The notes under the pieces are model-generated. The model saw nothing but the letters and a program-made list of their open reading frames with translations, did no database searches and was not told the origin of the DNA. A stretch of DNA of 64,000 nt, taken from Acrocarpospora catenulata. Its GTDB lineage: Bacteria; Actinomycetota; Actinomycetes; Streptosporangiales; Streptosporangiaceae. Made by a program: the position numbers and the translations under genes. This document shows, piece after piece, positions 2,161-27,447 of the stretch (positions within the stretch are counted from its first letter, which is position 1; each line of letters begins with the position of its first letter). The stretch covers positions 62,001-126,000 of the forward strand of contig NZ_JAHCST010000003.1 of NCBI RefSeq assembly GCF_018476525.1, in the 5' to 3' direction.

Positions 2161-2847
2161 ATGGCCCAGCCTGCGTTCGAAGCGGCCGGCACCTACCTCA
2201 CCGGCTCCGGTACGTCGGCGGCGGTCGCGGTCCCGTCGGGGGTGGCAAACGGAAAGATCGTCATCGTAACGATCTTCATCAACTCCGGCACGGCCGCCAT
2301 CACCCCGGCCGCCGGTTTCGCCCCGGCCGAGGGCTCACCGAGTGCGATCACCGCCGGTGGCGGCAACCACGCCCTGCACGTCTTCTGGAAGAGAGCCACC
2401 GCGGCCGACGCCGGCACCTACACCTTCTCGTGGACCGGCTCGATCGTCCGCGAGGCAATCGCCACCCTCTACAACAACTGCGTGGCCAGCGGGAACCCGT
2501 TCGACTCTCCGACCAGCACCGCGCAGGACACCGGTAGCGGCAGCGTCACCCCGGCCGTCAACGTCACCACCGCTGGCCCAGACAGACGGCTCATCTGGGC
2601 GGCCACGAACTGGGCGGGCGGCACCTGGACGGCGCCGACCAGCTTCACCCGAAGGGCGCAAGGCGGCAACGGCAACTTCACCACCTGCGACGCGCCCTTC
2701 CCCACCCAGGGAGCCTCGGGGAACGTCACCGGCTCCGCGACGGGCTCCGACAAACGGTGCGCGTGGCTGGGCGCCCTCATCGGTACCACCTCGGGCGCGC
2801 CGGACCGGCCGCCACCACAGATGTCCCAGTACGGCTCGTACTTCTAG
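2161..2847 (+). CDS. Phage structural protein, Ser/Thr/Gly-rich β-protein
   Basis: 228 residues, rich in Thr, Ala, Gly and Ser, with alternating hydrophobic β-strands and no membrane segment or catalytic motif. It starts 4 bp after the previous stop. The composition and the Ig-like pattern ('TYTFSWTGSIV', 'NVTTAGPDRRLIWAATNW') suggest a virion surface or tail decoration protein. No family is recognised; the call rests on position in the tail operon. Confidence 0.5.
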   Translation: MAQPAFEAAGTYLTGSGTSAAVAVPSGVANGKIVIVTIFINSGTAAITPAAGFAPAEGSPSAITAGGGNHALHVFWKRATAADAGTYTFSWTGSIVREAIATLYNNCVASGNPFDSPTSTAQDTGSGSVTPAVNVTTAGPDRRLIWAATNWAGGTWTAPTSFTRRAQGGNGNFTTCDAPFPTQGASGNVTGSATGSDKRCAWLGALIGTTSGAPDRPPPQMSQYGSYF

Positions 2848-2854
2848 GAGAGAC

Positions 2855-3355
2855 ATGGCTCGCTACTTGACCACCGTGGTCAGCACGGCGGCGATCGTCG
2901 CCACCGCACCTTCGGGCGGCTCGGCGAACGCGCTGTTCGCCAACCTCAACGCGTCGGCCACCTCCGGCCACAAGCTGCGCCGGGTCACGCTGGGCGTGGT
3001 CGCGGGCGCGTCCGTGCCCACCAGCCAGCAGCTCCTGGTCGCCGTGGTCCGCACCACGGCGCGGGGCACCGCCACCGCGACGGTCACCCCGAAGGCCATG
3101 GACCCGAACGGGCCGCCGTCCTCGATCACCGGCCTGGACACCGCCTGGAGCGCAGTCCCGACCGCCACCTGGACGGCCAGCAACTGGCTCTACCAGATCC
3201 CCTTCAACTCGCAGAGCGGCGTGGACCTGCCGTTCGAGCTGCTGGAGGAGTTGATCTGCCCTACCGGCGTCGCCAACGGGCTGGCCTTCATCAACACCAC
3301 CAACGCGCTCCCGGCCGGCCACTCCTACAGCCTGACCGTGGAACACGAGGAGTAG
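2855..3355 (+). CDS. Phage tail-region protein, unknown family
   Basis: 166 residues. The start ATG at 2855 is chosen because a GGAGAGAC ribosome site precedes it, 7 bp after the upstream stop. An Ala-rich N-terminus ('TTVVSTAAIVATAPSGGSANALF') is followed by a β-rich body containing 'HKLRRVTLGVVAGASVPTSQ' and ending 'GHSYSLTVEHEE'. The pattern resembles actinophage minor structural proteins, but no family can be named. Confidence 0.5.
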   Translation: MARYLTTVVSTAAIVATAPSGGSANALFANLNASATSGHKLRRVTLGVVAGASVPTSQQLLVAVVRTTARGTATATVTPKAMDPNGPPSSITGLDTAWSAVPTATWTASNWLYQIPFNSQSGVDLPFELLEELICPTGVANGLAFINTTNALPAGHSYSLTVEHEE

Positions 3356-3379
3356 GAACCGGCGGGCTGAGGGAGCGGC

Positions 3380-4321
3380 ATGTCGAGGCGCTGGCGCTGG
3401 CCGCGCTCGCGGCGCGGCGTCTTCCTGGTGGTGCCACCCGCCGCCCAGGACGCGCCGCCGCCCGAGCTGCCGCCGCGCCTGCTGGAACTGAGCGGGCCAA
3501 GGCCTCGCTGGGGCCGGGCCCGCAGGAGCGTCTTCCTGGCCGTCCCGCCGCTGGCTCCGGCGCCGGTCCCGTACGTCCGCAGGCGCGCGTCCTCCTGGCC
3601 GGTGTCCCGGGCCGGGGTGTTCCTGGCCGTGCCGCCCGCTCCACCCACCGAGCCGCCACCGTGGATCCCCGGCATCGTGCGCACCCGGGTACGGGTGAGC
3701 TGGAGGACTCGCCGCGCCTGGTGGACGCCCGTTCCGGAGACTGCCGCACCGCCCACACCACCAGCCTGGGTGCCCTCGTTCACCAGCTCGCCGCGGCCGA
3801 CCACCCCACCGCCGCGGCGCGGCCGGTGGCTCACCTGCCCGCCACCTCAAGAGCGGCCGCCCGCGCCCACCGCCCGCGCTCGTCGGCAGTGGCCAGCCTC
3901 CCGCCGCGGCGGAATCACGGACCCGCCCTGGCCGCTTCCTCCGGTGGCTCCTGCCCGGCCTCCGGACAGGATTGGACGCCGCCGGACGCTCTCGTACGTG
4001 CCGCGCCGGGGACGGTGGAGCGCGCCGCCCTGGCCCCAGGTAGTCCCGCCCGCGCCGCCGGTATGGGTGCCGCCGCACATGGTTGGCCGCCGTCCGCGCC
4101 CGCCAGCTCGCCGCGGACGCCTCATGCTCTGCCCGCTCGTCGGCCTGGCCCCGCCGTCGGTGATGCTGCGCGCGATCCGCGCCGAGGTGCACGGGCCGGC
4201 GCGTTCCGGCCCGGTCCCGTCCGGGCCCGCCGTACACACGCATTCCGTCGTCGGCCCGGCTGTCCACCGCGAGGTGACCGGGCCCGCTACCAGCCGCAAC
4301 GTCTCGGGAACGGGGGTCTGA
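3380..4321 (+). CDS. Pro/Arg-rich repetitive protein in phage tail operon
   Basis: 313 residues with extreme composition: mostly Pro, Arg, Trp and Val with almost no acidic residues before residue ~260. Imperfect repeats of about 40-50 residues alternate an RRG-(V/S)-FL-x-VPP or RRGRW core with Pro-rich spacers and a '(P)WVP' motif. The last ~50 residues ('VMLRAIRAEVHGPARSG...') are non-repetitive, hinting at an attachment domain. It overlaps the next gene by one base (TGATG), so it is translated as part of the tail operon. Codon position GC bias could create spurious Pro/Arg ORFs, but the repeats, the coupled downstream start and the lack of a competing frame support it as real. Function unknown. 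Confidence 0.55.
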   Translation: MSRRWRWPRSRRGVFLVVPPAAQDAPPPELPPRLLELSGPRPRWGRARRSVFLAVPPLAPAPVPYVRRRASSWPVSRAGVFLAVPPAPPTEPPPWIPGIVRTRVRVSWRTRRAWWTPVPETAAPPTPPAWVPSFTSSPRPTTPPPRRGRWLTCPPPQERPPAPTARARRQWPASRRGGITDPPWPLPPVAPARPPDRIGRRRTLSYVPRRGRWSAPPWPQVVPPAPPVWVPPHMVGRRPRPPARRGRLMLCPLVGLAPPSVMLRAIRAEVHGPARSGPVPSGPAVHTHSVVGPAVHREVTGPATSRNVSGTGV

Positions 4322-4662
4322 TGGCCACGGTGTTGCAGAGGGAGTCCACGGAGTTCATCTACAGCGGGGTGGATGGCGATGTGCCCAGCGTGGGCGCTGA
4401 GATGGCGTTCCTGGCCGCCGCTGTCCGGCCGACGTCGGGGGACTGGGAGCAGGCCGTGCTGGTGCCGGACAACTCCCACCCGCTGTGGGCCGATGCCGTC
4501 GCCTCTGGCCTGCTCGGCGACTACTACGTGGCCATCCTCGTGGGCGCGTACGGCGGGACGGGCGTGGTCCTGGCCCCCGGCGACTACCAGGTGTGGCTCC
4601 GGCTCACGGACACCGTGGAGCAGCCGGTCAGGATCGCGCCGACCGCCCTGGAGATCGCATGA
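4321..4662 (+). CDS. Small phage protein, unknown
   Basis: 113 residues, ATG overlapping the previous stop. Predicted as a compact globular β-protein: 'MAFLAAAVRPTSGDWEQAVLVPD' then 'YYVAILVGAYGGTGVVLAPGDYQVWLRLTDTVEQPVRIAP'. The second half resembles Ig-like phage domains that describe attached value ranges (e.g. BppU-like N-terminal domains), but this is only a pattern resemblance. Overlaps the next start by 4 bp (ATGA). Confidence 0.5.
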   Translation: MATVLQRESTEFIYSGVDGDVPSVGAEMAFLAAAVRPTSGDWEQAVLVPDNSHPLWADAVASGLLGDYYVAILVGAYGGTGVVLAPGDYQVWLRLTDTVEQPVRIAPTALEIA

Positions 4663-4880
4663 TCAAGGTGAGCGTGCCGTACGAGCACGACCCCGCCGAC
4701 CTGTCTCCCATCCACCTCGCGGTCCTCCCGCGCGGTGCCCGACCCGGCGAGGACGACTGGGTGCCCGCCTACCGGGACACGGTGGACGGCCGCCGGGTGG
4801 TCTGGGCACGGTTCGAGGACCCGGCCGGCGTGGTGTGGCTGCGGACACGGGACGGGCAGCGCGAGGTGACCCGGCTGTGA
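4659..4880 (+). CDS. Small phage protein, unknown
   Basis: 73 residues, start ATG inside the ATGA overlap with the preceding gene and end inside a GTGA overlap with the next. The sequence is charged ('YEHDPADLSPIHLAVLPRGARPGEDDW'), with no membrane segment. Its retention between two 4-bp overlaps is the best evidence that it is translated. No family recognised. Confidence 0.5.
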   Translation: MIKVSVPYEHDPADLSPIHLAVLPRGARPGEDDWVPAYRDTVDGRRVVWARFEDPAGVVWLRTRDGQREVTRL

Positions 4881-5317
4881 TCCGCCGCCCTGGCCCTCTC
4901 TCCGAGCACCCCTTCGAGTTGCTGTTCGGCGCGCTGGCCGCGGTTTCCGGCCTGGTGGCCACGCTGGGGATCGTGGCGAGCGCGAGCATCAACGCCGCGC
5001 TCCCGCTGCTGGCAGTCCGGGCTTGGGGCGTGCTGCAACTGGCGGCGGGGGTGCTGATGGTGGTCGGTGTGCTGCTGCCGTACCGGCGTCGGGCCTCGCT
5101 GGTGGTGGCGTGGCGGCTGGAGCGGGCGGGGCTGTGGCCGCTGGCGGCAACGGCGCTCGTGTACGCGGTGGTGGCGGTCAGCCATTCGGGGGTGCGCGCG
5201 TTGCAGGCGGCGGTGGTGTACGTGGCGCTCGCGCTGGCCTGCATCGCGCGGGCGCGGGCGGTCACACGGCTGGAGCAGGCGCTTCTTTCGGTGGAGCCGC
5301 CGGATGTCGACCGTTGA
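4877..5317 (+). CDS. Four-helix membrane protein of the phage late operon
   Basis: 146 residues, GTG start overlapping the previous TGA. Four hydrophobic segments can be read at roughly 15-35, 42-65, 85-105 and 112-130, with Arg-rich connecting loops. Membrane proteins of this size just upstream of the lysin can be holins or accessory lysis proteins in actinophages, but the four-helix form and the lack of a known signature leave the role open. Confidence 0.45.
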   Translation: MIRRPGPLSEHPFELLFGALAAVSGLVATLGIVASASINAALPLLAVRAWGVLQLAAGVLMVVGVLLPYRRRASLVVAWRLERAGLWPLAATALVYAVVAVSHSGVRALQAAVVYVALALACIARARAVTRLEQALLSVEPPDVDR

Positions 5318-11240: not shown

Positions 11241-12380
11241 TCAGCCGACGGCTATGAGCTTCTCAACCTCGGGCTGGAATTCGTCGTCCATGGTGACGTC
11301 CAGCCAGCCGCGTAGGCCGAGCAGGACAAGGGCGCGCACGATCGATTCGCGAGTAAGGGGTGGCTGGCGGTTGACCTTCCACTTCGCGACTGCCTGAACA
11401 ACCTCGGTCGCGGTCGGGCGGCGGCCGTGCCGGTGCAGGAGAACGCCAGCGGCGTAGTGCACAGAGGCGGCAATCTCGGCATCTTGTGCAGTCATCCGAG
11501 CCACTAGATCCACCGTGCGTTCGATGGCCGGCCGCCACTGCTCCATCTGGTCGCGGTACGTCTCCACCGCGTCGCGGTAGGTGGGACCCACGCGGACCTC
11601 AAACATACGCCCTTGTTGACGCTCCACCAGGAGACCGTTGTTCTGGAGTCGCGCCACCATCTTCTTGACCTCGGCCGCGTATGGGCCGTAGCTCGCTGCT
11701 TCGTAGGCGAGCCCCGTCGGTACGCCAGCCTGCGTGGCGAAGTAGACGACCTTCATGAAGAAGACGCGTCCCACTGGCCAGTGGTACTCCTGCCGCTGGA
11801 CGCGATCGAGGATGGCCACAACAGAAACCCACTCTGGCGCCACGAACCGTGCGCGTTCATCATCGGGCTGCGGGTCTGCGGCGGCGTCCAGCGTGAGTTG
11901 CTCGGGCTGGACGGCGATGTCATGCGGGGCGTAGAGCTGAACCGGGATCCCCAGGCGGGAGAGGTATCGATAGAGAGTCGGGCCCACGACGTCCCACTCC
12001 AGTTGACCGTTGCCGCAGCCGAGCGGCGGGACTGCTATAGAGGTGATGCCCCACTCCCGGTAGTGGCGTTCGAGATGTTGGAGGCCCGCGACTATGTCCT
12101 CCAACCTGCTCACGGCCCGCCAGTGGTTTTTGGTGGGGAAGTTGACGATCAGGTGGTCGTCGGCCCGGAAGACATAGGGCTCTCCCAGTCGCACCTCGCC
12201 GCGGTCGCACCGCTGGACGTAGTCCTTGAACATCTCCGGGTACCTGCGCTTGAAGGCGAGTGCGATGCCCTTGCCCATGATCCCGACGCAGTTGACGGTG
12301 TTGACCAAGGTCTGGGCATGCGAAGCGAGAAGATCACCCGACGTGACGTTTACCAGGGATGACTCATCCGAAGAAGACAT
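11241..12380 (-). CDS. darG: DarG-type antitoxin: macrodomain DNA ADP-ribosylglycohydrolase
   Basis: 379 residues. Residues ~8-160 form a macrodomain: 'VNVTSGDLLASHAQTLVNTVNCVGIMGKGIAL' and 'IAVPPLGCGNGQLEW', typical of TARG1/DarG enzymes that remove ADP-ribose from thymidine in DNA. The C-terminal ~200 residues ('MKVVYFATQAGVPTG...YGPYAAEVKKMVARLQNNGLL') resemble the Panacea/DUF4065 antitoxin fold and probably bind and block the toxin directly. It overlaps the toxin gene by 17 bp and is downstream of it, the usual DarT-DarG order. DarTG systems act as phage defence through DNA ADP-ribosylation (established knowledge). Complete by length. Confidence 0.88.
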   Translation of the reverse strand: MSSSDESSLVNVTSGDLLASHAQTLVNTVNCVGIMGKGIALAFKRRYPEMFKDYVQRCDRGEVRLGEPYVFRADDHLIVNFPTKNHWRAVSRLEDIVAGLQHLERHYREWGITSIAVPPLGCGNGQLEWDVVGPTLYRYLSRLGIPVQLYAPHDIAVQPEQLTLDAAADPQPDDERARFVAPEWVSVVAILDRVQRQEYHWPVGRVFFMKVVYFATQAGVPTGLAYEAASYGPYAAEVKKMVARLQNNGLLVERQQGRMFEVRVGPTYRDAVETYRDQMEQWRPAIERTVDLVARMTAQDAEIAASVHYAAGVLLHRHGRRPTATEVVQAVAKWKVNRQPPLTRESIVRALVLLGLRGWLDVTMDDEFQPEVEKLIAVG

Positions 12381-12954
12381 GGGGTTTCACCACCACTCCC
12401 AGCCCCGCAGCCAATGATTGGCACACTTGTTCGCTTCGTGCGTTGTAGACGTAGCATCCCATCAGATAGGCGGGAGGAACATAGCCGGGGATGAGAACTT
12501 CTGAGCATCTCTGCCGCTTTCGCTCCGCTTGATCCCATGGGTTATCGTCTGTCCACCATTCAGCGTATACGCGCTGTTCGTCCAGGTGGGTGAGGCCCTG
12601 GGGGGATGCAAAGAACCTGGTGCCCCCTGTCGCGGCGTTACCATCTGTGACTACAGCCCCCGGGATGTCTAAGACTGAGGGGTTCACTCGAACGACAGCC
12701 GTGGCATGCCGGCGGGACCTTCTCACATACATCATCGGGTTCCGCGCATCGAAGTACAGGTTCGCGTAGTCGTGGAGCCACAGGCCGTTAGAGAGGCGCA
12801 CCTTACGGCGCAGATCCTGCACGCTTGTCTCGGCAATTGAGAGGTGCGGCACTGACTCCGCCTGGTTGTGACATAAGATCCCGAGCCTGGCGATGGAGTG
12901 CAGGTTGTCGAAGGGCGTGATGAAGTGCAGTTCGGTAACCAGGCTGCGATCCAT
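12364..12954 (-). CDS. darT: DarT-type toxin: DNA thymidine ADP-ribosyltransferase
   Basis: 196 residues from ATG 12954, which follows a G-rich ribosome site; GTG 12975 would add seven residues. DarT features in order: 'LHFITPFDNLHSIARLGIL' start; 'WLHDYANLYFDARNPMMY' with the NAD-binding Arg; 'GTRFFASPQGL'; and the catalytic Glu in 'CSEVLIPGYVPPAYL'. It uses NAD+ to modify thymidine in single-stranded DNA at specific motifs and is held in check by DarG, encoded immediately downstream with a 17-bp overlap. Both genes are less GC-rich than the tail operon, consistent with separate acquisition. Confidence 0.88.
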   Translation of the reverse strand: MDRSLVTELHFITPFDNLHSIARLGILCHNQAESVPHLSIAETSVQDLRRKVRLSNGLWLHDYANLYFDARNPMMYVRRSRRHATAVVRVNPSVLDIPGAVVTDGNAATGGTRFFASPQGLTHLDEQRVYAEWWTDDNPWDQAERKRQRCSEVLIPGYVPPAYLMGCYVYNARSEQVCQSLAAGLGVVVKPHVFFG

Positions 12955-13050
12955 CGCCACCCCCGCCGCTCCCACCTCGCCGCATGCACGGCACGGATAG
13001 AGATTATGGCGTGCTCGGGCGACCGGGCTGTCATCGTGGCCAACGCTGCT

Positions 13051-13689
13051 TCACTGCGCTCCCGGCAGTTCGGCGGAACCGCTCGGGCCGAGTTCGGGAA
13101 TGTAGCGGTACAGCGTCGCCCGGGACACGCCGAGGAGTTTCGCGATGCTCGCCACGGTCTCCTCGGGCTGGGTCAGCAGCCGGCGGGCGCGAGCCACCAT
13201 TTCCGCGTCCATCGCTGGCGGCCGGCCGAGCCGCTGCCCGCGGGCCCGCGCGGCAGCCAGGCCCTCGTGTGTGCCCTGGACGATGAGTTCGCGGATGAAC
13301 TCTGCCAGCGCGGCGAAGACGTGGAAGACCAGTCGGCCGCCGGGGGTGGTCGTGTCGAGGGCTTCATGGAGGGATCGGAAGCCGACGCCGCGGCGGCGAA
13401 GCTCACCGACGATGTTGATGAGGTCCTGAAGGCTACGGCCGAGTCGGTCGAGCGACAGTACGACGAGTGTGTCTCCGGGGCGGAGGTAGTCGAGGCATGC
13501 GGCGAGTTCTGGCCGGTCGGTGTTCTTCCCGGAGAGCTTGTCCGTGAAGACGCGGATGCATCCGGCGGAAGTAAGTGCGAGGTCTTGCCGGTCGAGGTTC
13601 TGTTCGCGGGTGGAGACCCGCCCGTAGCCGACGAATGTTCCGGTGAGGATCGCTGGCTCGGCGAGTGGGGGGTCCACGGTGGCGGTCAT
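13051..13689 (-). CDS. Serine recombinase, resolvase/invertase type
   Basis: 212 residues. N-terminal resolvase domain with catalytic Ser26 in 'GYGRVSTREQNLDRQ', 'DKLSGKNTDRPEL', 'LSLDRLGRSLQDL' and the long E-helix 'FAALAEFIRELI', followed by 'ARARGQRLGRPP' and a C-terminal helix-turn-helix ('ETVASIAKLLGVSRATLYRYI'). This is the short Tn3-resolvase/Hin-like form, not a large serine integrase. It probably resolves dimers or inverts DNA at sites in the ~100 bp upstream, where repeats are visible. It cannot by itself explain integration of the element. Confidence 0.88.
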   Translation of the reverse strand: MTATVDPPLAEPAILTGTFVGYGRVSTREQNLDRQDLALTSAGCIRVFTDKLSGKNTDRPELAACLDYLRPGDTLVVLSLDRLGRSLQDLINIVGELRRRGVGFRSLHEALDTTTPGGRLVFHVFAALAEFIRELIVQGTHEGLAAARARGQRLGRPPAMDAEMVARARRLLTQPEETVASIAKLLGVSRATLYRYIPELGPSGSAELPGAQ

Positions 13690-15579: not shown

Positions 15580-15879
15580 CTAGGCGGCCTTCGGGAGCTT
15601 CCGGCCGCCCTCGTTGACCAGGTCCTTGAAGCCCATGCCCGGCCGGAACTTGGGGACCCAGGACTCGGCGACCTGGACCGGCTCGTCGGTGGACGGGTTC
15701 CGCGCCTCGCGGGCCGGGCGGTGCACCATCTCGAAGCTGCCGAACCCGGTGATCGAAACCTTGTCGCCGTCGGCGACCGCGCCCTGGATGGTCTCGATGA
15801 TGGCGTTGACCGCCTCGGTGGCCGTCTTCTTGTCGCCGACCCGGTCAGCGATCGCGTCCACGAGTTCCTTCTTGTTCAT
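15580..15879 (-). CDS. hup: HU-family nucleoid protein
   Basis: 99 residues from ATG 15879 ('MNKKELVDAIADRVGDKKTA'). The full HU fold is present: helical N-terminus, 'VSITGFGSFEMVHRPAREARNP' at the β-arm with the intercalating Pro region, and 'FRPGMGFKDLVN' at the C-terminus. It lacks the Lys/Ala-rich tail seen in actinobacterial chromosomal HupA/S, so it is a short, element-encoded HU that binds and bends DNA, likely at transfer, replication or recombination sites of the element. Confidence 0.9.
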   Translation of the reverse strand: MNKKELVDAIADRVGDKKTATEAVNAIIETIQGAVADGDKVSITGFGSFEMVHRPAREARNPSTDEPVQVAESWVPKFRPGMGFKDLVNEGGRKLPKAA

Positions 15880-15977
15880 GGTTCTCCTCTGTGGGGTGGG
15901 GAGCAGGCTTGGGCTGACTCCTCCGGACACCCGCCCGGCCCGGGGGAGGGCGACGGGCGAGCATCCGCAACGTCAGC

Positions 15978-16283
15978 TCAGCCGAGCAAGTCGGCGAGGG
16001 CCTTTTCGGTGACCTGCTCGGAGCTGGCCATGAACTGGTAGCCGCTCGCTCCAGGGCGCATCCGGTCGAGCCGGATCCGCGTCCGGCTGCCTCGCATGTC
16101 GCGGACGTTGCCGTAGTACTTGCCGTCCGCCTGGAGGTTCAGCTGGCGCTCGATCTCCAGGGTGTTGGTCAGCGTCTCGACGACGGCGTAGCCGTGATCC
16201 ACCGCGACCACGCGGACAGAGCGGCCGTGGCCGCGCCAGCTCGTGTCGGCCCACACGGAGCCCACCTGCACCGTGATCTCCAT
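15978..16283 (-). CDS. Small β-rich protein, unknown
   Basis: 101 residues. The N-terminal half ('VGSVWADTSWRGHGRSVRVVAVDHGYAVVETLTN') looks like an SH3/KOW-like β-barrel and the second half ('KYYGNVRDMRGSRTRIRLDRM') is basic. Such short proteins occur in actinomycete phages and conjugative elements without assigned function. It lies 46 bp upstream of the 3' end of the FtsK gene, in the same transcript. Confidence 0.5.
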   Translation of the reverse strand: MEITVQVGSVWADTSWRGHGRSVRVVAVDHGYAVVETLTNTLEIERQLNLQADGKYYGNVRDMRGSRTRIRLDRMRPGASGYQFMASSEQVTEKALADLLG

Positions 16284-16329
16284 GGCTTCTCCTCTCCGGA
16301 TCTGTTCGGTGCTGTAGTTGTAGGAGCGG

Positions 16330-18585
16330 CTAATTGCGGAGGTCGGCCAGCAGGCCGGGGAGGTCGTCCGGCTTGACCAGGACCTCGCAGGCTTTCCCGC
16401 CGACGCTTGGGCCGATCACGCCCTTCTGGAACAACCGGTCCATGAGCTGCTTGGCCTCCTTGGGGGGAAGCCGGAGCTTGCGCTGGAGCATCGACATGGA
16501 GCCGAACTGGGTGGTGACGATCAGCTCGGCCGCCTGTACCAGCAGCTCCAGGTCCTCGCCGGTCTCCCCGTCGTTCCCTGTCTCCTGCTCAATTGGCTCG
16601 ATCGTGGGGACGCGAGGCTGGTAGGTGGGGTCGGCTTGCTGCTTGCAGTGGGCGACAATGCGATCGACTTCGGCGTCGGAGACGTAGGCGCCCTGCAGCC
16701 GCGTCGGCGTGCTGGCATCGAGGGGCAGGAACAGGGCGTCTCCCTGCCCGACCAGTTCCTCTGCGCCGGGCTGGTCCAGGATGACCCGCGAGTCGGCCAG
16801 GGAGGAGGCGGCGAAGGCCAGCCGGGACGGGATGTTGGCTTTGATCAGGCCGGTCACCACGTCCACCGACGGCCGCTGGGTGGCGACCACCAGGTGGATG
16901 CCCGCCGCGCGGGCCAGCTGGGTGATCCGGACGATGGAGTCCTCCACGTCCCTGGGAGCGACCATCATCAGGTCGGCCAGCTCGTCCACGATAACCAGCA
17001 GGTATGGGTACGGCTGGTAGACGCGCTCGCTGCCCGGCGGGGGCTGGAGCTTGCCCGCCCGCACGGCCGCGTTGAACTCGTCCACGTGCCGGAAGCCGGC
17101 GGCGGCCAGGTCGTCGTAGCGGCGGTCCATCTCCCCCACCACCCACTCCAGGGCCTCGGCGGCCTTCTTGGGGTTGGTGATGATCGGGGTGATCAGGTGG
17201 GGGATGCCCTCGTAGGGGGTCAACTCCACCCGCTTGGGGTCAATGAGGACGAACCTCACCTCGTCCGGTGTGGCGCGGGCAAGGATGCTGCACACCAGGC
17301 TGTTGATGCACACCGACTTGCCGGCCCCGGTCGCGCCGGCCACCAGCGTGTGCGGCATCTTCGCCAGGTTGGCGATCACGGGGCGGCCTTCGATGTCCAG
17401 ACCGAGGCCGACGACGAGCGGGTGCTGCTCGGCTTGGGCGGCGGGGGAGCGGAGCACATCGCCTAGGGCCACGGTGTCCCGGTCGGTGTTCGGGATCTCC
17501 AGGCCGACGGCGGCGTAGCCGGGTGCCGGCGCCAGGAGCCGCACCAGTTTGGTCCTGGCGGCAAGACGGAAATCGTCACGCCGCGCGGTGATCTTTGAGA
17601 CGGGGACGCCCTTGCCGGGGGTGACCAGATATCGGGTCACCTGGGGGCCGCGGATGAAGTCGGTCACCGCCGCGTTGATCCCGAAGGATTCCAGGACGCC
17701 GTTCAGGGCGGCCACCATGGCGTCGGTCGCCGCGGTCCGGCCGCGCGGCGGTGCCCCTTCCTTGAGGGCGTCGGTGCCGGGCGCGGTGTAGTCGTCGAGC
17801 GCCGGTTCGGGCTGCGGCTGGCGGCGCCTCCCCTGCTCGCGGGGGCGGGCAGGCTCCGGCTCCGGCTGCGGGGGCGGGGCGGGTTCGGCCGGTAGGGGTT
17901 CCTCGTCTGCGTCGGCCTCCTCCTGCTGGTCGGGCTGGTGCTGGTCGTCATCGCCTCTCCGGTACCGCGCGGGCGTCGGCCCGGTCGGAGTGGCCGGCTT
18001 GGTGCGGCGGAAGGCGAGGACCAGCCCACCCGCGCCGAGCGCGACCAGCAGGAGCGCCCAGAGCCAGGACGGCAGCAGCAGCGCCGGAACGGTAATGACC
18101 AGCCCGGCCATACCGCCCGACGCGGCGAGGGCGTCCCATTGGCCGAACACGGGCAGCCCGGCGGCGAGGTGGGTCAGCCCGGTGATGGCGGCCGTAGCCA
18201 TCGCGAGCCCGGCACCGCGGCGGATCGTCTCCATCTCGGCGTCCGGCCTGCGCAGGATGCGGGCGCCCAGCCATACCAGGTAGGCGAGCAGCAGCCAGCC
18301 CGTCCAGGCGCCGAACAGCACCCGCACGGGGAACACCTGGTAGCCGTAAGGGATGGCCGCCACGATGGCGCCCGCCACCAGGCCAGCCCCCACCTCGTCA
18401 CGCCGCTGGGTGGCGAGGACCTTCTCGGGTCCGCCGGTGGTCGAGCGGATGACGGCACCCACCCCGCGCGCCACCTTGCCCAGGGCGCGGCCGAGGTCGC
18501 CGTTTCCCCGCCGCGCAGCGGGTCGGCTGACGGTCCGGGATGCCGTCCGGGTGGCCGGCCGCCGTGTGGTGCGTCTCTTGGCCAC
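16330..18585 (-). CDS. FtsK/SpoIIIE-type DNA translocase with winged-helix γ domain
   Basis: 751 residues from GTG 18585, chosen because GGAAGGG lies 8 bp before it; GTG 18594, overlapping the previous stop, is the alternative. Domains: basic leader (~1-50), three or more membrane segments (~64-195), acidic/Pro-rich linker (~195-285), FtsK core with Walker A '[10 protein letters not shown]' near residue 420 and Walker B '[13 protein letters not shown]', and a C-terminal γ-type winged helix ('[20 protein letters not shown]'). The ring motor pumps double-stranded DNA. The γ domain in FtsK/TraB proteins recognises short octamer sequences; a cluster of octamers lies 640 bp upstream. Probably a conjugation/segregation motor of the element, since chromosomal FtsK is usually longer and lies in a different context. 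Confidence 0.88.
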
Positions 18586-18590
18586 TGGGC

Positions 18591-19217
18591 TCACCCTTCC
18601 CGCACGAACTTGACGACGATGAGGGCGATAATGCCGACCACGATCGCGGTGGCCGCGGCGAAGCGGACCAGCCACGACGGGCCGAGCAGGACGAGCGCGA
18701 GCAGGAGTATGAAGCCAGCAGGGAGCACCATCTGCCGGGAGAGCACGGCGTCGAGCAGGCCCCGTCCGCCCACGGTGAGCAAGCCGCGCCCGGTTGCCGC
18801 CCAGTCCTGCCCTGCCGGGGTGGGGGCCTCGGACGGCTGGCCACCAGGCTCGGCGGACGGCAGCGCGGTGTCCGCGGCGTCTCGCTCGGCCTCGGCCAGG
18901 GTGAGCAGGATGGAGGCGGCTTCGGCGCCGAACTGGGGGGCGGCCCACGAGGCGTGGATGTGCTCCAAGTGCTCGGCACGGGTGGCGCGGTCGGTGACGT
19001 ACGCGAGCGGGTGCAGGGCCTCCACCGTGTCCCACGTCGGGTCCGAGGGCTCGTAGTCGGGGTGGGAGAGCAGGAGTTCGCCGTCGGCGACGATCCTGAC
19101 GAGGCGGGCGCGGGCGTGCCTCCCGGCGGCCTCTTCGGCGTCGGCGAGGTCGGCGAGGAGCTTTGCTCGGTGGAGGGGCTCGGTCGTGGCGCCGAGGTCG
19201 GCGATGGCGGTGGTCAT
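18591..19217 (-). CDS. Membrane protein coupled to the FtsK-type translocase
   Basis: 208 residues from ATG 19217 (GGAGACGAC ribosome site). The N-terminal ~110 residues form a soluble helical domain ('[21 protein letters not shown]...'). Two hydrophobic segments near the C-terminus (~160-180 and ~184-203, '[18 protein letters not shown]') anchor it. It ends 6 bp before the translocase start. Similar two-segment proteins accompany TraB/FtsK in Spd clusters; a role in pore assembly or spread is inferred. Confidence 0.55.
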
Positions 19218-19227
19218 GTCGTCTCCG

Positions 19228-19467
19228 ATGTGCGGCCCCATGTGCGGGCGCGGATGGTGAGTGTGCGGTCACGTTCTGTTCGTGTGCGGCGCGTGTGCGC
19301 ATGTGCGGTGATCTTGTGCGGGTATGTGCGGTCACGCTCTGTAGATGTGCGGCGTGCGCGTTGATCTTGCGCGGGCGATGTGCGTAAGGTGTGCGGGGCA
19401 CGTGCGCCCCTTACGCACATCGCGAAATCCCCTATAGAGAAAGACGGCCCCCCACGCCGATGTGCGG
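19228..19467. repeat. Cluster of ~12 TGTGCG octamers, candidate clt/oriT of the element
   Basis: Copies of (A/G/T)TGTGCGG occur at 19228, 19240, 19261, 19282, 19293, 19301, 19314, 19324, 19345, 19378, 19389 and 19460, nearly all on one strand and many about 10-21 bp apart. Two longer units share GTGCGGTCACG(T/C)TCTGT (19263 and 19326). The cluster lies in the intergenic gap between the two translocase genes. In Streptomyces plasmids TraB binds 8-bp repeats of the cis-acting locus of transfer (clt), so this is the obvious clt candidate; a promoter operator is the alternative. Confidence 0.7.
19375..19423. repeat. Perfect 15-bp inverted repeat next to the octamer cluster
   Basis: Arms GCGATGTGCGTAAGG (19375-19389) and CCTTACGCACATCGC (19409-19423) are perfectly complementary. 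Inside is a further GGGG...CCCC pairing. Each arm contains the TGTGCG core in opposite orientation. It could be a stem at oriT/clt, a terminator for the upstream translocase gene, or an operator. Confidence 0.65.
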
Positions 19468-21573
19468 CGCACCCGGCGTCCCGTCACCGTCCGTGAAGCG
19501 GGCCCCGGGCGCCCCCGCGCCCGCGCGCTCGAGCGGCGAGCGGACCAGATCCCAACCGCCGTCCTCCCTGGCCTGGATGCAGCCCAGGTCCGCCCATCGG
19601 TCGGTCTGCCGGTACAGGAACCGTCGGGACCGGCCCACCCGGCCCAGCCACTCCGTCAACTGACTGGTCTCCAGACCTCGAGACCCCGACCGGTACAGCC
19701 TGTCGAGCAGTTCGTCCCAGACCCGCTGCGCCTGCTCGGGCGTCAAGTCCGGCCGCTCCTCGTCGTCCTCCTGTCCGCCGTCCTCGACGTCGGTGCCGAT
19801 TTCAAGATCGGGGTCCACGTCGGCCCAGTCGTCGGCGGTGGCGTCCTCGCCGAGGTGCCGCTCGCGGGACTCCTCCATCTGGCGGCGCATCTCGGCGAGA
19901 TCCTGCGCGTTCTCCTCGTCGGCCTGCATTGCGGCCTCCTGTTCCTGGTCGAAGTCGTAAACCCGACGTCCGGGCATGGGCTGCTCGGGGCGCGGCGCGG
20001 GCACGCTGGCCCCCCAGACCCGGCCGGAGTGGCGGGTGCGCCGCGCGTATAGTTCACCGAACAGCTGTTCGGTAACGGTGTCCATGGGGTCGCGGACCTG
20101 CGCTCCGAGACGGACCGCCTCGGTCAGCTGCTCGTCGAGAGGATCGAAGATCCGCGCCATCGTGGACCACATCCGCTTGGGGGTTCCCAGGCCGGCGATG
20201 TAGCAGTAGCCCGGCTTGCTGGCGCCCCAGAGCGGCAGGCCGTCCTTGCCGAGCGCGCGGAGAGCCTCGTCAGGCAGGACGTGGCCCGCGTCGTCGGGCT
20301 CGGTCACTCCGAAGCAGATCCCGGACCCGTGCAGCTTGCGAACGGTTGTGGAGACCTGCCGGTAGATCCAGTCCTGGGTGCTGCTCACGAACATGATCCC
20401 GGCGCTGCCGGCGTCGGCGACCGCGTTCTCGTACTGGGTCTGGAACTTCCTGAACGTCTTGGACTCCTCGATGTGGATCACCAGGAAGTTCAGGCTGGAT
20501 CGCAGGCTCCAGCGGGCCAGCCCTTCGCGGGCCAGGTGAGCGGTTCTCCCCTTGATGACGTGGGCGAGCCGGGCCATGAACAGGCGGCCTTCGTCCTCCT
20601 CGGTGATCACCCACGTGAATCCTTCGACGATCGGCCCGAACGTCTGGAGCTCCTTGGTCAGGTCGATGCCGATGATGTTGAGGCGGCGCTTGGCCATGAG
20701 AGAGGCGAGGAAGACCCGGGCGAAGATGCTCTTGCCCGCGCGGGTGGTGCCGCCGACCTTCGTGTGGGAGACGTCGGCGGCCGACCGGTCGCTTTCGACG
20801 TCGCCGACCAGGCGCACCATGGCCAGGCCGGTCTGGTATTCGCCGACCGGGAATGGGTCGGTCGGCAGGCTGCCCAGCAGGTCACGCACGCCAGGCCACG
20901 GAATCGGCCGGGCCAGGTTGTCGCGGGTGGCGATCTCCATGTAGCCGACGCCATCACGGTTCTGGTCGCGCGCCAGATGGGCGCTTCCCGGTACGGCCCG
21001 AGCGTCCGCCGACAGCATAGGTACCAGGGCCTGCGCGTCGTCGATCGTGCCGCCCGGCAGGGTCCTGACCTTGGCTCGGACCACGCCTCGCTCATCTACC
21101 TCGGCCTTCGAGAACTGCACCCGGGCGGCGGAGATGGCCTCAGCGAGTGGGTTTGGCGCGGTCTCGCTGGTGGCGCCCGCGTACTTCTGGCCCCTCCAAA
21201 TGATCCACAGCGCCCACACCACGAGCGAGCAGCACAGGTAGGGGATCCACATGATCCGCCATCCCAGCACCGTCACCAGGACCAGCATCGCGGTGGCGCA
21301 CCCGCCCGTGACCCCGACAAGGATCTTCAGGTGGGGGCGCGGTCCGGCCGTCGACAGGCCGAACCACGTCAAGGCGGCGCCGATCAGCGCGAACACGAGC
21401 GCCAGCAGCGGCGTCACGACCGGATCGCCGCCGAACCCCCACCTTGCCCCGGCGCACAGCAACGCGAACACAACACACCCGATCAGGGGCGTGACTAGCG
21501 GCAGACCGTGCACCAGCCACCAGCCGCCATCCACCCGCAGGGCGGGCTCCGCAACCTGCACACGCTTAGCCAT
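19432..21573 (-). CDS. Second FtsK/TraB-type plasmid transfer ATPase
   Basis: 713 residues. Membrane segments fill ~20-125. An FtsK-like ATPase core follows, with Walker A 'VGGTTRAGKS' near residue 275 and a Walker B-like 'NFLVIHIEESKTF'. The C-terminal region is acidic (~560-640) and ends in a winged-helix-like stretch ('SRGLETSQLTEWLGRVGRSRRFLYRQTDRWADLG'). It lacks the conventional FtsK γ sequence and is only distantly similar to the translocase at 16330. The arrangement is that of actinomycete TraB/TraSA conjugation motors that move double-stranded DNA. Spd-like genes lie directly upstream in tight overlap. Confidence 0.8.
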   Translation of the reverse strand: MAKRVQVAEPALRVDGGWWLVHGLPLVTPLIGCVVFALLCAGARWGFGGDPVVTPLLALVFALIGAALTWFGLSTAGPRPHLKILVGVTGGCATAMLVLVTVLGWRIMWIPYLCCSLVVWALWIIWRGQKYAGATSETAPNPLAEAISAARVQFSKAEVDERGVVRAKVRTLPGGTIDDAQALVPMLSADARAVPGSAHLARDQNRDGVGYMEIATRDNLARPIPWPGVRDLLGSLPTDPFPVGEYQTGLAMVRLVGDVESDRSAADVSHTKVGGTTRAGKSIFARVFLASLMAKRRLNIIGIDLTKELQTFGPIVEGFTWVITEEDEGRLFMARLAHVIKGRTAHLAREGLARWSLRSSLNFLVIHIEESKTFRKFQTQYENAVADAGSAGIMFVSSTQDWIYRQVSTTVRKLHGSGICFGVTEPDDAGHVLPDEALRALGKDGLPLWGASKPGYCYIAGLGTPKRMWSTMARIFDPLDEQLTEAVRLGAQVRDPMDTVTEQLFGELYARRTRHSGRVWGASVPAPRPEQPMPGRRVYDFDQEQEAAMQADEENAQDLAEMRRQMEESRERHLGEDATADDWADVDPDLEIGTDVEDGGQEDDEERPDLTPEQAQRVWDELLDRLYRSGSRGLETSQLTEWLGRVGRSRRFLYRQTDRWADLGCIQAREDGGWDLVRSPLERAGAGAPGARFTDGDGTPGAPHIGVGGRLSL

Positions 21574-21574
21574 C

Positions 21575-21961
21575 TCACTTCTCCGTCCGATAGCGGCCCT
21601 GACGGCCCGACTTGCCGTTCTGCGCCGGATCGGTCTCCAGCGCGATGTACTCCTGGTGGACCATCGACATCCGCACCGCCGTCTTGGCCGCCTCCAGCAC
21701 GGCCTCGGCCGACCGCTTGCCGTGCCCCGACAGGCGGAAGCTGAGGAACATGCGGTCCCACCAGCCCACCCGGCCGCCCTTCGGGTCCCGCTCGCGCAGC
21801 CATCGGCCGGCCTCCGCCGCGTCCTCGGCGATCAGCAGAGACAGGTCGCACATGATCGTGCGCACCGCCTCCAGGTAGCGGCGGTACTCCTCGTGGGAGC
21901 GGCCCAGATCCGCCTGCTCGAAGACCGCAGCCGCCTGCGCGAGCTTCCCTGACCTGCTCAT
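21575..21961 (-). CDS. Spd-region soluble protein, paralogue of its neighbour
   Basis: 128 residues, start ATG 21961 overlapping the previous gene by 4 bp; stop lies 2 bp from the TraB-type gene start. The stretch 'AAVFEQADLGRSHEEYRRYLEAVRTIM' matches 'VATFEQAEPIRSHDAFRDYLDLAESMF' in the upstream neighbour, so the two are tandem paralogues. A basic Gly/Arg loop and a helical C-terminus follow. Small paired proteins like this are typical of the transfer/spread region; exact function unknown. Confidence 0.55.
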   Translation of the reverse strand: MSRSGKLAQAAAVFEQADLGRSHEEYRRYLEAVRTIMCDLSLLIAEDAAEAGRWLRERDPKGGRVGWWDRMFLSFRLSGHGKRSAEAVLEAAKTAVRMSMVHQEYIALETDPAQNGKSGRQGRYRTEK

Positions 21962-22335
21962 TTGGGGCCCCTCGCCTTCTTCTCCTTGGCCTCGAATTCG
22001 GCGTGTACGGCGCGCATGGCCCGCAGCGCGTTGATGGCCAAGTGGAGCTGGTCGGACAGGTGGCGGCCGTGGCCGCGGGTACGCCGGGCCAGCCGTGTGC
22101 GCTCGATCCACGGCACCCGCTTGCCCTTCTTGGGCTTGCGCCTGGAGAGCCATGTGGCGGCGATCTCGGCGTCCTGGTGGCCCATCATCGCCGCGGTGGT
22201 GAACATGGATTCGGCGAGGTCAAGGTAGTCCCGGAACGCGTCGTGACTGCGGATCGGCTCGGCCTGCTCGAATGTCGCAACCTTCGCGGCGAACGTGCCG
22301 ACGGCCTGGCCTTGTCCCTGGTTCTGGTCCGCCAT
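21958..22335 (-). CDS. Spd-region soluble protein, paralogue of its neighbour
   Basis: 125 residues from ATG 22335 (in TGATG with the upstream stop). Shares the FEQA(D/E)..RSH motif and overall helical plan with the 21575-21961 protein, then a basic segment ('WLSRRKPKKGKRVPWIERTRLARR') and a helical tail. Four-base overlap downstream. Together with its paralogue it is likely a partner of the TraB-type motor. Confidence 0.55.
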   Translation of the reverse strand: MADQNQGQGQAVGTFAAKVATFEQAEPIRSHDAFRDYLDLAESMFTTAAMMGHQDAEIAATWLSRRKPKKGKRVPWIERTRLARRTRGHGRHLSDQLHLAINALRAMRAVHAEFEAKEKKARGPK

Positions 22336-22577
22336 CACAGGTCTCCGATCACGTCGCGGAGCAGCCGCAGAGCGGTGCCCTTGGTGGAGGTGTGGACGAT
22401 CAGCCCGGTGGGGGTGCGCCGCGACATCGTCGAGTCGGCCGCGGCCCGACGCCAGGCTGTGCGCACCGAGGCGACCCGGCCCCGGACCGTGGCGTTCTCG
22501 TCGGTGCAGAAGGCGACGACCAGCGTCACGGTGACCAGGGCGGCCACCGTGACGTAGTCGAGGATGATCTGCCTCAT
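22335..22577 (-). CDS. Small single-pass membrane protein, Spd-like
   Basis: 80 residues from ATG 22577. One membrane segment near the N-terminus ('LDYVTVAALVTVTLVVAFC', ~6-25) is followed by a short basic soluble tail. It is locked into the operon by TGATG overlaps on both sides. Small membrane proteins of this form are common Spd (spread) proteins in actinomycete conjugative plasmids; identity inferred from context. Confidence 0.55.
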   Translation of the reverse strand: MRQIILDYVTVAALVTVTLVVAFCTDENATVRGRVASVRTAWRRAAADSTMSRRTPTGLIVHTSTKGTALRLLRDVIGDL

Positions 22578-22810
22578 CACGCCCCCGGGCTGGTCAAGGC
22601 GGGGACGGCGGGGTGGGCCAGCAGCACGACCGGCCGGGCGTCGGCGGGCGGGAGCTGGCCGTGGCGGTCCAGCACGTGCCGCACGTAGACGAGCGGGTCG
22701 GTGTGGCCGAGCGCCTGGCCGGCTACCGCGGCGCGGGCGGCGGCCAGGAGTTCGGCGTAGTCGGCGGCGGTCTGCGCGGCGAGGTCGGAGCGGGAGAGGG
22801 TTGCAGTCAT
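22577..22810 (-). CDS. Small helical protein of the transfer operon
   Basis: 77 residues from ATG 22810. Mostly α-helical and Ala-rich ('AQTAADYAELLAAARAAVAG') with a Pro-rich C-terminus; no membrane segment. Its start overlaps the upstream DUF2637 gene's stop region and its stop overlaps the next start (TGATG). Function unknown. Confidence 0.5.
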   Translation of the reverse strand: MTATLSRSDLAAQTAADYAELLAAARAAVAGQALGHTDPLVYVRHVLDRHGQLPPADARPVVLLAHPAVPALTSPGA

Positions 22811-23808
22811 GCCGCACCCCCGTACAGCTCGTCGCGAACCTGTCGGGCGGTGGAGGTGGCGCACTTGAGAGCGGCGCGGATCTTGTCCACTCCGGCGCCC
22901 TCCGGGAGCACTCCGGCGGCGATCAGAGCCCGCACGCGGGTCGCCTTCTGGGCGATGTCGTCGGGGTCAGTCGCCCCCGACTCGACCCCCGACTCGAAGT
23001 CGGCGTTTCCCCTGTACGATCCGCCAGTCGCCCCCCGACTCGCCCCCCGACTCCAGCGGCCCCCGAGGGCGGGTGCCGGAAGGTCGGAAAGGATCTTCCA
23101 GAGGGTGGGCAGGACCCAGACGGAGATCACGGCGGCGACCGGTCCCAACGAGTGGACGATCAAGTCGAGGAGGCTGAAGCCGTCCAGCTTGAACGCCGGC
23201 CAACAGTTGAGCACCAGCGTGAGCGACAGCAGCACCAGCTCCACCCGGAACAGGCGCTTGCCTTCGGGGCTCTTGCGGTCCACCACCTTGTCGCGCATCG
23301 CGGAGTACGCCTGCACCCCGACGGCGGCCAGCAGGGGCAGCGACAGGACGGCCTCGACGCCGAACGCCGCCCACCATCCGAGGTCGCCGTAGTGGAGGTC
23401 GAGCGCCTTCGCCACGCTCGCCTGCACACCGATGCTGCTCACCGCGAGCGCGATCCCGGCCGCGGCCAGGGTCATGCTGGTGGTGATCCGGCGGACCTTG
23501 GCGTCCCGCCAGGCAAGCGCGGCCGGGTCCTGTGCCAGCTGGTGCAGACGCGCGGCCTCCCAGGTCTGGCGCCGGCGCTTGCGCACCTTGTCGGTGTCGA
23601 GCTGGAACGGGGTGTCGTCGTCCTGGAGGTCGGCGAGCAGGTGCGCTTCGGCGACCTCCTTCCGCAGGCGCTCGACGCGCTTGGTCTCGCCCCCGTGGAG
23701 GGGCACGACGGGCCGGGGTGCCTGGTCGGCCATGAAGAGGTCGAGTTCGGCCAGGCCGCGGGAGACGTCCTCCGGGCTCGGCTCCGGGGTGGGGGTCGTG
23801 ATGGTCAT
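22807..23808 (-). CDS. DUF2637/SpdB-like membrane protein with C-terminal helix-turn-helix
   Basis: 333 residues from ATG 23808, preceded by a near-perfect AAAGGAGGA ribosome site. A soluble N-terminal region (~1-105) is followed by four membrane segments (~110-225; 'TMTLAAAGIALAVSSIGVQAS', 'WWAAFGVEAVLSLPLLAAVGV', then two more). A low-complexity SRGA-type stretch and a C-terminal helix-turn-helix-like region ('CATSTARQVRDELYG') complete it. DUF2637 proteins are typical of actinomycete conjugative plasmids and integrative elements (SpdB-like), where they support intramycelial spread. Coding repeats of CCCCCGACTCG lie near 22975-23055. Confidence 0.7.
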   Translation of the reverse strand: MTITTPTPEPSPEDVSRGLAELDLFMADQAPRPVVPLHGGETKRVERLRKEVAEAHLLADLQDDDTPFQLDTDKVRKRRRQTWEAARLHQLAQDPAALAWRDAKVRRITTSMTLAAAGIALAVSSIGVQASVAKALDLHYGDLGWWAAFGVEAVLSLPLLAAVGVQAYSAMRDKVVDRKSPEGKRLFRVELVLLSLTLVLNCWPAFKLDGFSLLDLIVHSLGPVAAVISVWVLPTLWKILSDLPAPALGGRWSRGASRGATGGSYRGNADFESGVESGATDPDDIAQKATRVRALIAAGVLPEGAGVDKIRAALKCATSTARQVRDELYGGAA

Positions 23809-24089
23809 CGGTCCTCCTTTCGGAACCTGCGGCGCCACGGCCGGGCCGGGCGGGGGTGGGAGGTTTCGGTGAGGGCGGCGCGGATGGCGGCCAGCTCCTC
23901 GTGAATGGCGAGCAGCGCCAGCACCTGCGCCTGCTGCGCGGTGGCCTCCGCGAACGCGCGGCGCACCTCCGTGTGGGGGTGCCCGTACGGGCGGGAGTCG
24001 GCGAGCTGGTCGCGCGCCTGTGTGAGGTGCGAACGCGCATCCTCGACCAGCGACTGGCCGGGAGGCGGCGGGCCGTAGAGGTCCTTCAT
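23805..24089 (-). CDS. Small helical protein of the transfer operon
   Basis: 94 residues from ATG 24089. An amphipathic helical body ('DARSHLTQARDQLADSRPYG', 'EATAQQAQVLALLAIHEELAAIRAAL') ends in a basic tail (RPWRRRFRKE). Both ends overlap neighbours by one to four bases. Probably an accessory of the Spd/transfer genes; no family recognised. Confidence 0.5.
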   Translation of the reverse strand: MKDLYGPPPPGQSLVEDARSHLTQARDQLADSRPYGHPHTEVRRAFAEATAQQAQVLALLAIHEELAAIRAALTETSHPRPARPWRRRFRKEDR

Positions 24090-24460
24090 CACGCCGCCTT
24101 CCGGGCCTGGCGTACGGCGGCCTGGCGGCGGCCGCGCCGGATGTTCCACCGCTGGCGGGCGGTCTTGCCGCCGCGCACGCCGTGGATCTCGGAACGCTGG
24201 AGGTTGCGCTCCTCGTGCAGCGCGAGCTCCAGGCAGAGCGCCCGGACGGGGCAGCCGTCGCACAGGGTGCGGGCATGCTCCTCGTGGACGGCCCTTTCGA
24301 TCAGGTCCAGCGCGGGGTCGCCGGTCGGGGCCGGCTCGTCCGGGAACCAGGCGTCCGGGTCGGGTGCGTTCCGGCAGGCGCCGCGCGTGATGACGGCGAA
24401 GCGGAGATCCGAAAGGGTGTTCGCTGGCGCTTGGGCGCGCCGAAGCTGTATCAACGTCAT
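24089..24460 (-). CDS. WhiB-like (Wbl) iron-sulfur transcription regulator
   Basis: 123 residues. The four cluster-ligating cysteines are Cys29 ('GACRN'), Cys67, Cys70 ('LCDGCPV') and Cys76 ('LCLELA'), followed by a variant 'HGVRGGKTARQRW' of the G(V/I)WGG turn. The basic C-terminus (~95-123) is the usual DNA-contact tail. Wbl proteins bind a [4Fe-4S] cluster and partner with the housekeeping sigma factor. Element-borne Wbl genes are known in actinophages and plasmids; this one, at the head of the Spd run, likely regulates the element. Confidence 0.85.
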   Translation of the reverse strand: MTLIQLRRAQAPANTLSDLRFAVITRGACRNAPDPDAWFPDEPAPTGDPALDLIERAVHEEHARTLCDGCPVRALCLELALHEERNLQRSEIHGVRGGKTARQRWNIRRGRRQAAVRQARKAA

Positions 24461-24543
24461 GTCCTCGGTCCTGTTCTGCCAGGTCGGGATGTTCGGCCCC
24501 GGGGTGGGCGGTAGGGTCGCCTGCCCCGGGGGTGCTCAGGGGG

Positions 24544-26667: not shown

Positions 26668-27447
26668 ATGTCACCAGAGAGAGACACCGGGCCAGCGGGC
26701 CGTATCGCCGACGCCTTGCGAACCGCCATTCGCGATGGCCGGATACCGCCAGGCGGCAAACTCCCACCCGTCCGAGACCTGGCCGACCAGCACGGCGTGA
26801 GCCGAAACACGGCGGCGAAGGCTATCGCCCAACTGCGAAAGGAGGGCCTCATCACGACGAAGTACGGCAGCGGAGCATATGTGCGGGAGCGGCACCCGAT
26901 TCGACCTCTTGGGCCGGACCGTTACGCCCGCAGTCGTTGGCAGTCCACGGTCGTCCAGGCGTACGCCGACGATCGACTGGCGGACATTACCGAACAAGCT
27001 GGCGGGCAGACACAGGAAGTGAACCTCGTCGAAGCTGGCGAGCGTGTCGCTTCGAGGCTCGGGGTTGCCCCTGGCGCGCTGGTGTACGAGCGGGATCGCA
27101 CCATGTCACGCGACGGCGTGTCCACGCACACCATGACCAGCTACTACCGGCGGGAGGATGTCGAGGGGACCCCCTTGGTCGATCCCCGGCCGGGGATCGC
27201 CGGTCAGCGAGGTGGTTTCGCGATCCTGTCGGATCGGGGCCTGGAACCGCACGAGATCACCGAGGATCTGCGTGCGCGGATGCCGACAGTGGATGAGGCG
27301 ACGCTCCTCGAACTGCCGGACGGCGAACCCGTGGTTGAGATTCACCGCGTCACGCGGACCGCTGAGGGGCGGGTGGTCGAGTACGCCGTGGGCGTCCATG
27401 CGGCCAGCCGTTTCCTCTGGTCCTACACCTTCGCAATCCCGGACTAG
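26668..27447 (+). CDS. GntR/HutC-family regulator with UTRA ligand domain
   Basis: 259 residues. GntR winged helix at ~8-80 ('LREAIRDG.IPPGGKLPPVRDLADQHGVSRNTAAKAIAQLRKEG'-like; seen as 'PVRDLADQHGVSRNTAAKAI'), then a UTRA domain (~110-255) with 'APGALVYERDRTMSRDGVSTHTMTSYY' and 'LELPDGEPVVEIHRVTRTAEG'. HutC-type repressors of this kind (KorSA, KorA) control copy number and transfer in Streptomyces integrative plasmids. The CGTACG array upstream is its probable operator; a terminator follows the stop by 16 bp. Confidence 0.85.
   Translation: MSPERDTGPAGRIADALRTAIRDGRIPPGGKLPPVRDLADQHGVSRNTAAKAIAQLRKEGLITTKYGSGAYVRERHPIRPLGPDRYARSRWQSTVVQAYADDRLADITEQAGGQTQEVNLVEAGERVASRLGVAPGALVYERDRTMSRDGVSTHTMTSYYRREDVEGTPLVDPRPGIAGQRGGFAILSDRGLEPHEITEDLRARMPTVDEATLLELPDGEPVVEIHRVTRTAEGRVVEYAVGVHAASRFLWSYTFAIPD

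Follow-up and report, generated by a model that had tools for sequence, protein, structure and literature searches.

Repeat array between two translocase genes

Between the genes of two putative DNA translocases, the 64-kb stretch of DNA analyzed here (the window) carries a dense array of short direct repeats, which raises the question of whether this array is a transfer site of the clt type and, if so, which of the two translocases reads it. The features of the locus are listed in Table 1. The + strand of positions 19229–19466 contained exactly 12 copies of TGTGCG, of which 10 were TGTGCGG. The "about twelve octamers" of the first-pass annotation therefore hold for the TGTGCG core and not for the exact TGTGCGG, all 10 copies of which had A, G, or T as the preceding base, in agreement with the annotation. 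Along the traB strand, the repeat reads CCGCACA. The placement of the array in the gap between the translocase genes was likewise correct for most of its length, but the repeat at 19461 falls within the 3' end of the gene for a 713-aa traB homologue, and the first two, at 19229 and 19241, overlap the start of a 216-aa ORF, unless the true start of this ORF is the ATG listed in Table 1. This ORF separates the array from the FtsK gene.

Table 1. Coordinates of the features discussed (window numbering)
Feature	Position	Strand	Basis or remark
Candidate clt array	19229..19467	+	Repeat counts; same repeat at other traB loci
TGTGCGG x10	Starts 19229, 19241, 19262, 19283, 19302, 19315, 19325, 19346, 19390, 19461	+	
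Array variants	TGTGCGC 19294; TGCGCGG 19368; TGTGCGT 19379	+	
TraB homologue, 713 aa	19432..21573	-	NCBIfam NF041214; 54% identity to pSROS01
Winged-helix region of TraB homologue	19528..19752	-	Model fold order; PDB matches
Putative recognition helix SRRFLYRQTDRWA	19591-19629	-	Within TraB winged helix
Perfect 15-bp inverted repeat	19375..19423	.	Arms 19375-19389 and 19409-19423
14-bp CTTTCTCTATAGGG box	19430..19443	-	Identical in pSROS01 and G218, corresponding place
FtsK-like translocase (alpha, motor, gamma)	16330..18594	-	Domain matches
FtsK gamma recognition helix, 12 residues	16438-16473	-	Diverged
216-aa ORF, C-terminus hydrophobic (by eye)	18591..19241	-	Alternative start ATG 19217
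GntR/UTRA regulator	26668..27447	+	68% identical to pSROS01 GntR

In the whole window, TGTGCG was observed 50 times against 54 expected, so the signal of the array lies in clustering and not in abundance. Genome-wide (10.29 Mb), TGTGCGG occurred 718 and 723 times on the two strands, and the reversed control 736 and 706 times. From the genome-wide rate, approximately 0.016 copies were expected in the array and 10 were found (Poisson p ~3.5e-25 for 10 copies on one strand of 233 bp, with the site taken as chosen beforehand). Because TGTGCGG does not exceed its reversed control in the genome, 10 copies within 233 bp on one strand are far above chance, and the observation of the first-pass annotation was confirmed. 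The array had the highest 7-mer cluster density per 300 bp within the window. Only 13 pairs of TGTGCGG spaced 2–22 bases apart were found in the genome; seven of these lay in the array, and the other six were isolated single pairs. The 12 array sites were phased at 10.5 bp (R 0.82, p ~3e-4, uncorrected, with nine periods tried), and by this phasing they prefer one face of the helix.

TraB homologue and its C-terminal domain

The gene bordering the array encodes a protein with an N-terminus that appeared hydrophobic by eye, an FtsK/SpoIIIE motor, and a winged-helix-like C-terminus. The NF041214 model (plasmid_TraB) matched residues 24–678 with 230 bits (E 6e-68), under its curated cut-off of 800 bits. 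Matches above 800 bits were rare (1 of 200 genomes of the family and 3 of 394 of the class), so this cut-off marks a narrow group, and we filed the protein as a TraB homologue and not as the NF041214 equivalog. Its homology to NF041214 indicates a septal translocase with an FtsK/SpoIIIE motor, as in a TraB/clt module, and the cluster of short direct repeats adjoining traB is a further feature of such a module. PF01580 matched weakly, at 19.5 bits (cut-off 24; E 7e-4).

A structural model of the 109 C-terminal residues showed the order helix–helix–helix–strand–strand, with a mean pLDDT of 64.6 and block means of 66–82 over residues 21–90. The top ten PDB matches of this model had probabilities of 0.93–0.99 and a best E of 0.02, with no match at E ≤0.001; judging by their titles, all ten appear to be winged-helix proteins. 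The PDB search with the TraB homologue returned nothing at E 0.01. Both the fold order and the alignment with other TraBs point to a winged helix at the C-terminus, the model itself being of moderate confidence.

CCGCACA repeats at other traB loci

To place the array among related loci, we compared 89 traB loci. Directly 3' of traB and in the traB sense, CCGCACA was present in 10 copies in the window, nine in pJV1, and six each in pSN22 and pSSPS4.7a. The first of the pJV1 copies begins at 11107, after the end of traB at 11101. The window array thus has the CCGCACA core in the traB sense that characterizes a pJV1-type clt. Published work on this clt includes that of Servin-Gonzalez in 1996 and Franco in 2003; according to its title, the latter reports that clt function in pJV1 requires direct repeats. 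At least four exact copies on either strand were found in 6 of the 89 loci, namely the window, pJV1, pSN22, pSSPS4.7a, the Streptosporangium roseum plasmid pSROS01 (NC_013596; eight copies), and a further genome, G218 (four copies). Eight loci had one to three copies and 75 had none. The copies of pSROS01 were counted by hand because the scripted count, taken after the first TraB ORF of this plasmid, was 0. The TraBs of pSROS01 and G218 were 51–54% identical to that of the window, with the array at the same site, and in G218 the TraB, array, and FtsK follow the window order.

We also searched for 7-mer arrays of any sequence after traB (200 shuffles, uncorrected p; 88 loci, one of the 89 being dropped for N). 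Such an array was found at p ≤0.01 in 55 of the 88 loci, mostly with other 7-mers; other downstream repeats included TGACACC, TGGCACC, TTGCACC, and GAACACC, and TGTGACG-like repeats in G132 and G180. The test was negative in 33 loci, including pWTY27 (p 0.045) and G218 (p 0.050), and for pSROS01 the wrong stretch was scanned. Because it missed G218 and also pWTY27, for which a clt is experimentally known (PMC3583192), the test is not a clean detector of clt sites. By eye, the winged helices looked alike within each octamer class across the 89 loci, which offers material for a recognition code, and the 55 of 88 loci are a first data set for studying how DNA is chosen by TraB winged helices, and hence which elements and chromosomes are able to mobilize each other. 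As a separate observation, a CCCTA/TATAGG-like AT-rich box was present within 300 bp after traB in 29 of 89 loci and in 62 of 460 background windows; we do not claim enrichment because the background was unmatched for intergenic DNA.

The TraBs were then ranked by similarity to the window TraB. For the winged helix, pSSPS4.7a, pSN22, and pJV1 ranked 3, 4, and 11 of 88 (scores of 76, 71, and 63), and for the motor they ranked 41, 43, and 46 of 88; the window TraB is thus nearer to the pJV1-type TraBs in the winged helix than in the motor. Loci without such an array had winged-helix scores of 71 (L185), 70 (L137), and 70 (L186, with two copies), and L142, with three CCGCACA, ranked 34. The three plasmids amount to approximately one independent case because they are close kin. 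The ranking agrees with TraB as the reader of the array in a way that is suggestive only, with a narrow score margin.

Phased short direct repeats are also typical of replication iterons and partition centromeres, and pSROS01 carries a ParA gene. The neighbors of the window array, however, are traB and the 216-aa ORF/ftsK, the array of pSROS01 lies approximately 10 kb from parA (12839), and pJV1 has its annotated replication gene at 3188–5143 and its repeats instead after traB. We regard iterons or a centromere as highly improbable.

Inverted repeat and conserved box

The 15-bp inverted repeat noted in the first-pass annotation proved to be perfect, with the TGTGCG core in both arms and one TGTGCGT in each; the tool output gave 20-nt arms at 90%. 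Its - strand TGTGCGT was the sole opposed octamer-like site in 19200–19480 (one mismatch or fewer). The core of the inverted repeat, TGTGCGTAAG...CTTACGCACA, is common to the window and G218, and at this position in pSROS01 TGTGCGG and CCGCACA face each other instead. The inverted repeat contributes a single octamer in the opposed direction and may assist in nucleating loading or setting its direction.

The same structure could act as the transcription terminator of the traB operon, with the repeats being incidental. The RNA hairpin on the traB strand had a folding energy of -31.5 kcal/mol (z -3.2) and begins nine bases beyond the traB stop, as would suit a terminator. Against this, a simple scan showed no T-tract terminator-like site, pSROS01 has opposed octamers in place of the stem, and termination would leave the array unexplained, making this reading very unlikely. 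No known RNA was found at the gathering score in 16000–24500.

The 14-bp CTTTCTCTATAGGG box overlaps the final traB codons in the window. Among 341 family genomes, it occurred in two (G000 and G218), both at the array site, and it was absent from pJV1 and from the stretches of pSN22 (7.8 kb) and pSSPS4.7a (5.9 kb) searched. A search of viral contigs gave 91 stretches, which we took as background. A 64-base probe around the pSROS01 box matched pSROS01 itself and, weakly (E 0.4), two other plasmid records.

FtsK-like protein as an alternative reader

The first-pass annotation had named the gamma domain of the FtsK-like protein as the natural reader of the repeats. The protein matched the gamma family PF09397 (E 7e-13). 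The gamma helix RVGFAKAGRLMD has been linked to KOPS reading. This common helix was found in 76 of the 83 FtsKs examined, including those of pSROS01 and G218; in four others a single residue differed, in two no helix was found, and among the 81 with a helix the window FtsK, which lacks the common one, was the sole strong departure. We searched for FtsK near traB in 36 stretches (5–28 kb each, many extending only a few kilobases beyond traB) and found it, besides the window, in pSROS01, G218, and G132; six further stretches gave the G132 match again and nothing else. A tblastn search with the window FtsK gave no match in the whole of pJV1, in 7.8 kb of pSN22, or in 5.9 kb of pSSPS4.7a.

A gamma domain that has drifted to fit TGTGCGG could read the array, alone or with TraB; such a role would fit the departure of the window helix and the location of ftsK, which in the window, pSROS01, and G218 lies downstream of the array. 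However, pSROS01 and G218 combine the array with the common RVGFAKAGRLMD helix, and pJV1 and the pSN22 stretch have the array with no FtsK match, so that the gamma domain did not hold up as the natural reader and its involvement seems improbable. Because the array coexists with an ordinary gamma helix, and in pJV1 occurs with no FtsK match, the TraB homologue appears to be the likelier reader.

What appears to be new, judging from sequence comparison, is a Streptosporangiaceae version of the site with the 14-bp CTTTCTCTATAGGG box, opposed octamers, and a linked FtsK. These features might belong to a two-motor conjugation module in Streptosporangiaceae, in which TraB would transfer the DNA, the co-encoded FtsK would orient or resolve it, both would load at one clt of opposed octamers around the fixed CTTTCTCTATAGGG box, and the window FtsK would have shed the usual gamma specificity; we consider this a speculative and rather unlikely extension.

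Neighboring genes and mobility of the element

The 216-aa ORF had no Pfam or NCBIfam match, and tblastn found no counterpart in pSROS01 or G218; a search of 150 family genomes gave, apart from the ORF itself, three weak matches (best E 1e-4), of which one was in the genome of the window. A check for spd genes yielded this membrane-like ORF and ORFs upstream, all with no family match. The GntR gene forms the right-hand end of the segment matching pSROS01.

Given its position in the leader of the 216-aa ORF and FtsK, the array may have a regulatory role. It might be a cluster of operators at which a regulator, for instance the GntR protein, or TraB controls the 216-aa ORF and ftsK; the GntR gene, at 68% identity, accompanies the module in pSROS01. 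Near the window GntR gene, however, there were just single TGTGCG at 26494 and 26880; the pSROS01 GntR gene has three spread over approximately 420 bp in or beside it, and that of G218 has one, 0.7 kb off. A simple scan for promoters of the sigma-70 type showed none in 19150–19550, the repeats at this place differ between traB loci, and at least ten sites are many for an operator. An operator cluster is thus an improbable account of the array. Promoter and terminator readings were rejected, as simple scans gave no site for either.

With 50 Pfam queries covering mostly 0–46 kb, the only recombinase found was a serine resolvase-like protein of 212 aa (13051–13689), and no replication gene was named. 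The element may therefore be stationary today. Comparison within the genus showed shared DNA up to approximately 10.3 kb and again from approximately 28.7 kb, which was patchy and consisted partly of repeated genes, and it did not fix the ends of the element. The region of the resolvase match also encodes an HU-like protein (15580–15930) and, at 11241–12975, a match to a DarT ADP-ribosyltransferase beside a macro-domain protein, presumably a DarT/DarG-like toxin–antitoxin pair.

Comparison with known transfer systems

The analysis shows the array itself, where it lies and how it is oriented with respect to traB, the presence of its repeat at other traB loci, and the winged-helix-like C-terminus of the TraB homologue. 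We consider it highly probable that the array is a candidate clt read by the TraB homologue through its winged helix, after which the motor would transfer the double-stranded DNA of the element. In such a mechanism, the C-terminal winged helix would bind the TGTGCGG/CCGCACA octamers, several TraB subunits or hexamers would be loaded onto the array of phased repeats, and double-stranded DNA would then be pumped into the recipient by the motor. Binding, loading, and transfer are here proposed by analogy with pJV1, pSVH1, and pWTY27 (PMC3583192, PMC9513070, PMC12857230).

Among the closest known systems is pSROS01, with identities of 54% for TraB, 65% for FtsK, and 68% for GntR, and with an unchanged order of array, 14-bp box, and ftsK. 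It differs from the window in having three TGTGCGG facing five CCGCACA (array at about 2530–2760) and the common FtsK gamma helix RVGFAKAGRLMD, in lacking a counterpart of the 216-aa ORF, and in possessing a second, free-standing winged-helix ORF and a second array upstream of traB. The free-standing ORF (166 aa, 2838–3338; L104 10129–10629) duplicates the linker and winged helix found at the end of the TraB ORF before it, as a separate copy of the putative reader domain. Second clusters of six CGCACA sites each lie approximately 1.0–1.5 kb upstream of traB in pSROS01 (L104 6708–6790) and G218 (C168 22787–22879), and the window has none there. In the literature library searched, no paper covered clt and TraB in Streptosporangium, or pSROS01.

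pSN22 and pSSPS4.7a resemble the window in their six exact CCGCACA each downstream of traB and differ from it in showing neither an FtsK match nor the CTTTCTCTATAGGG box in the 7.8 and 5.9 kb searched. The clt of pWTY27 is likewise made of short direct repeats and lies where the translocase gene ends (its 3' end), but its repeat is a different sequence, TGACACC, bound by the TraA of that plasmid, as described in PMC3583192.

pJV1 (NC_001759) shares with the window the exact CCGCACA directly after traB in the same sense, and its TraB is more alike in the winged helix than in the motor. Unlike the window, it has no FtsK match and no CTTTCTCTATAGGG box, its TraB is 27% identical over 112–529, and its clt is described as containing imperfect inverted repeats (PMC3583192). 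The pJV1 clt is given in the same source as nine direct repeats of CCGCACA[C/G][C/G] (PMC3583192). The specificity for TGTGCGG, which the first-pass annotation had supposed might be new, is therefore not new, as TGTGCGG is the reverse complement of this published core, which we checked in the pJV1 sequence. The proposal of a candidate clt, by contrast, was supported, since the array adjoins a traB homologue and the same repeat follows traB in three Streptomyces plasmids, including the published clt of pJV1. The locus is most likely a new member of the known TraB/clt kind, with a tag known from the Streptomyces plasmid pJV1, and the transfer-site repeat of pJV1 is thus present outside Streptomyces, beside a distantly related TraB.
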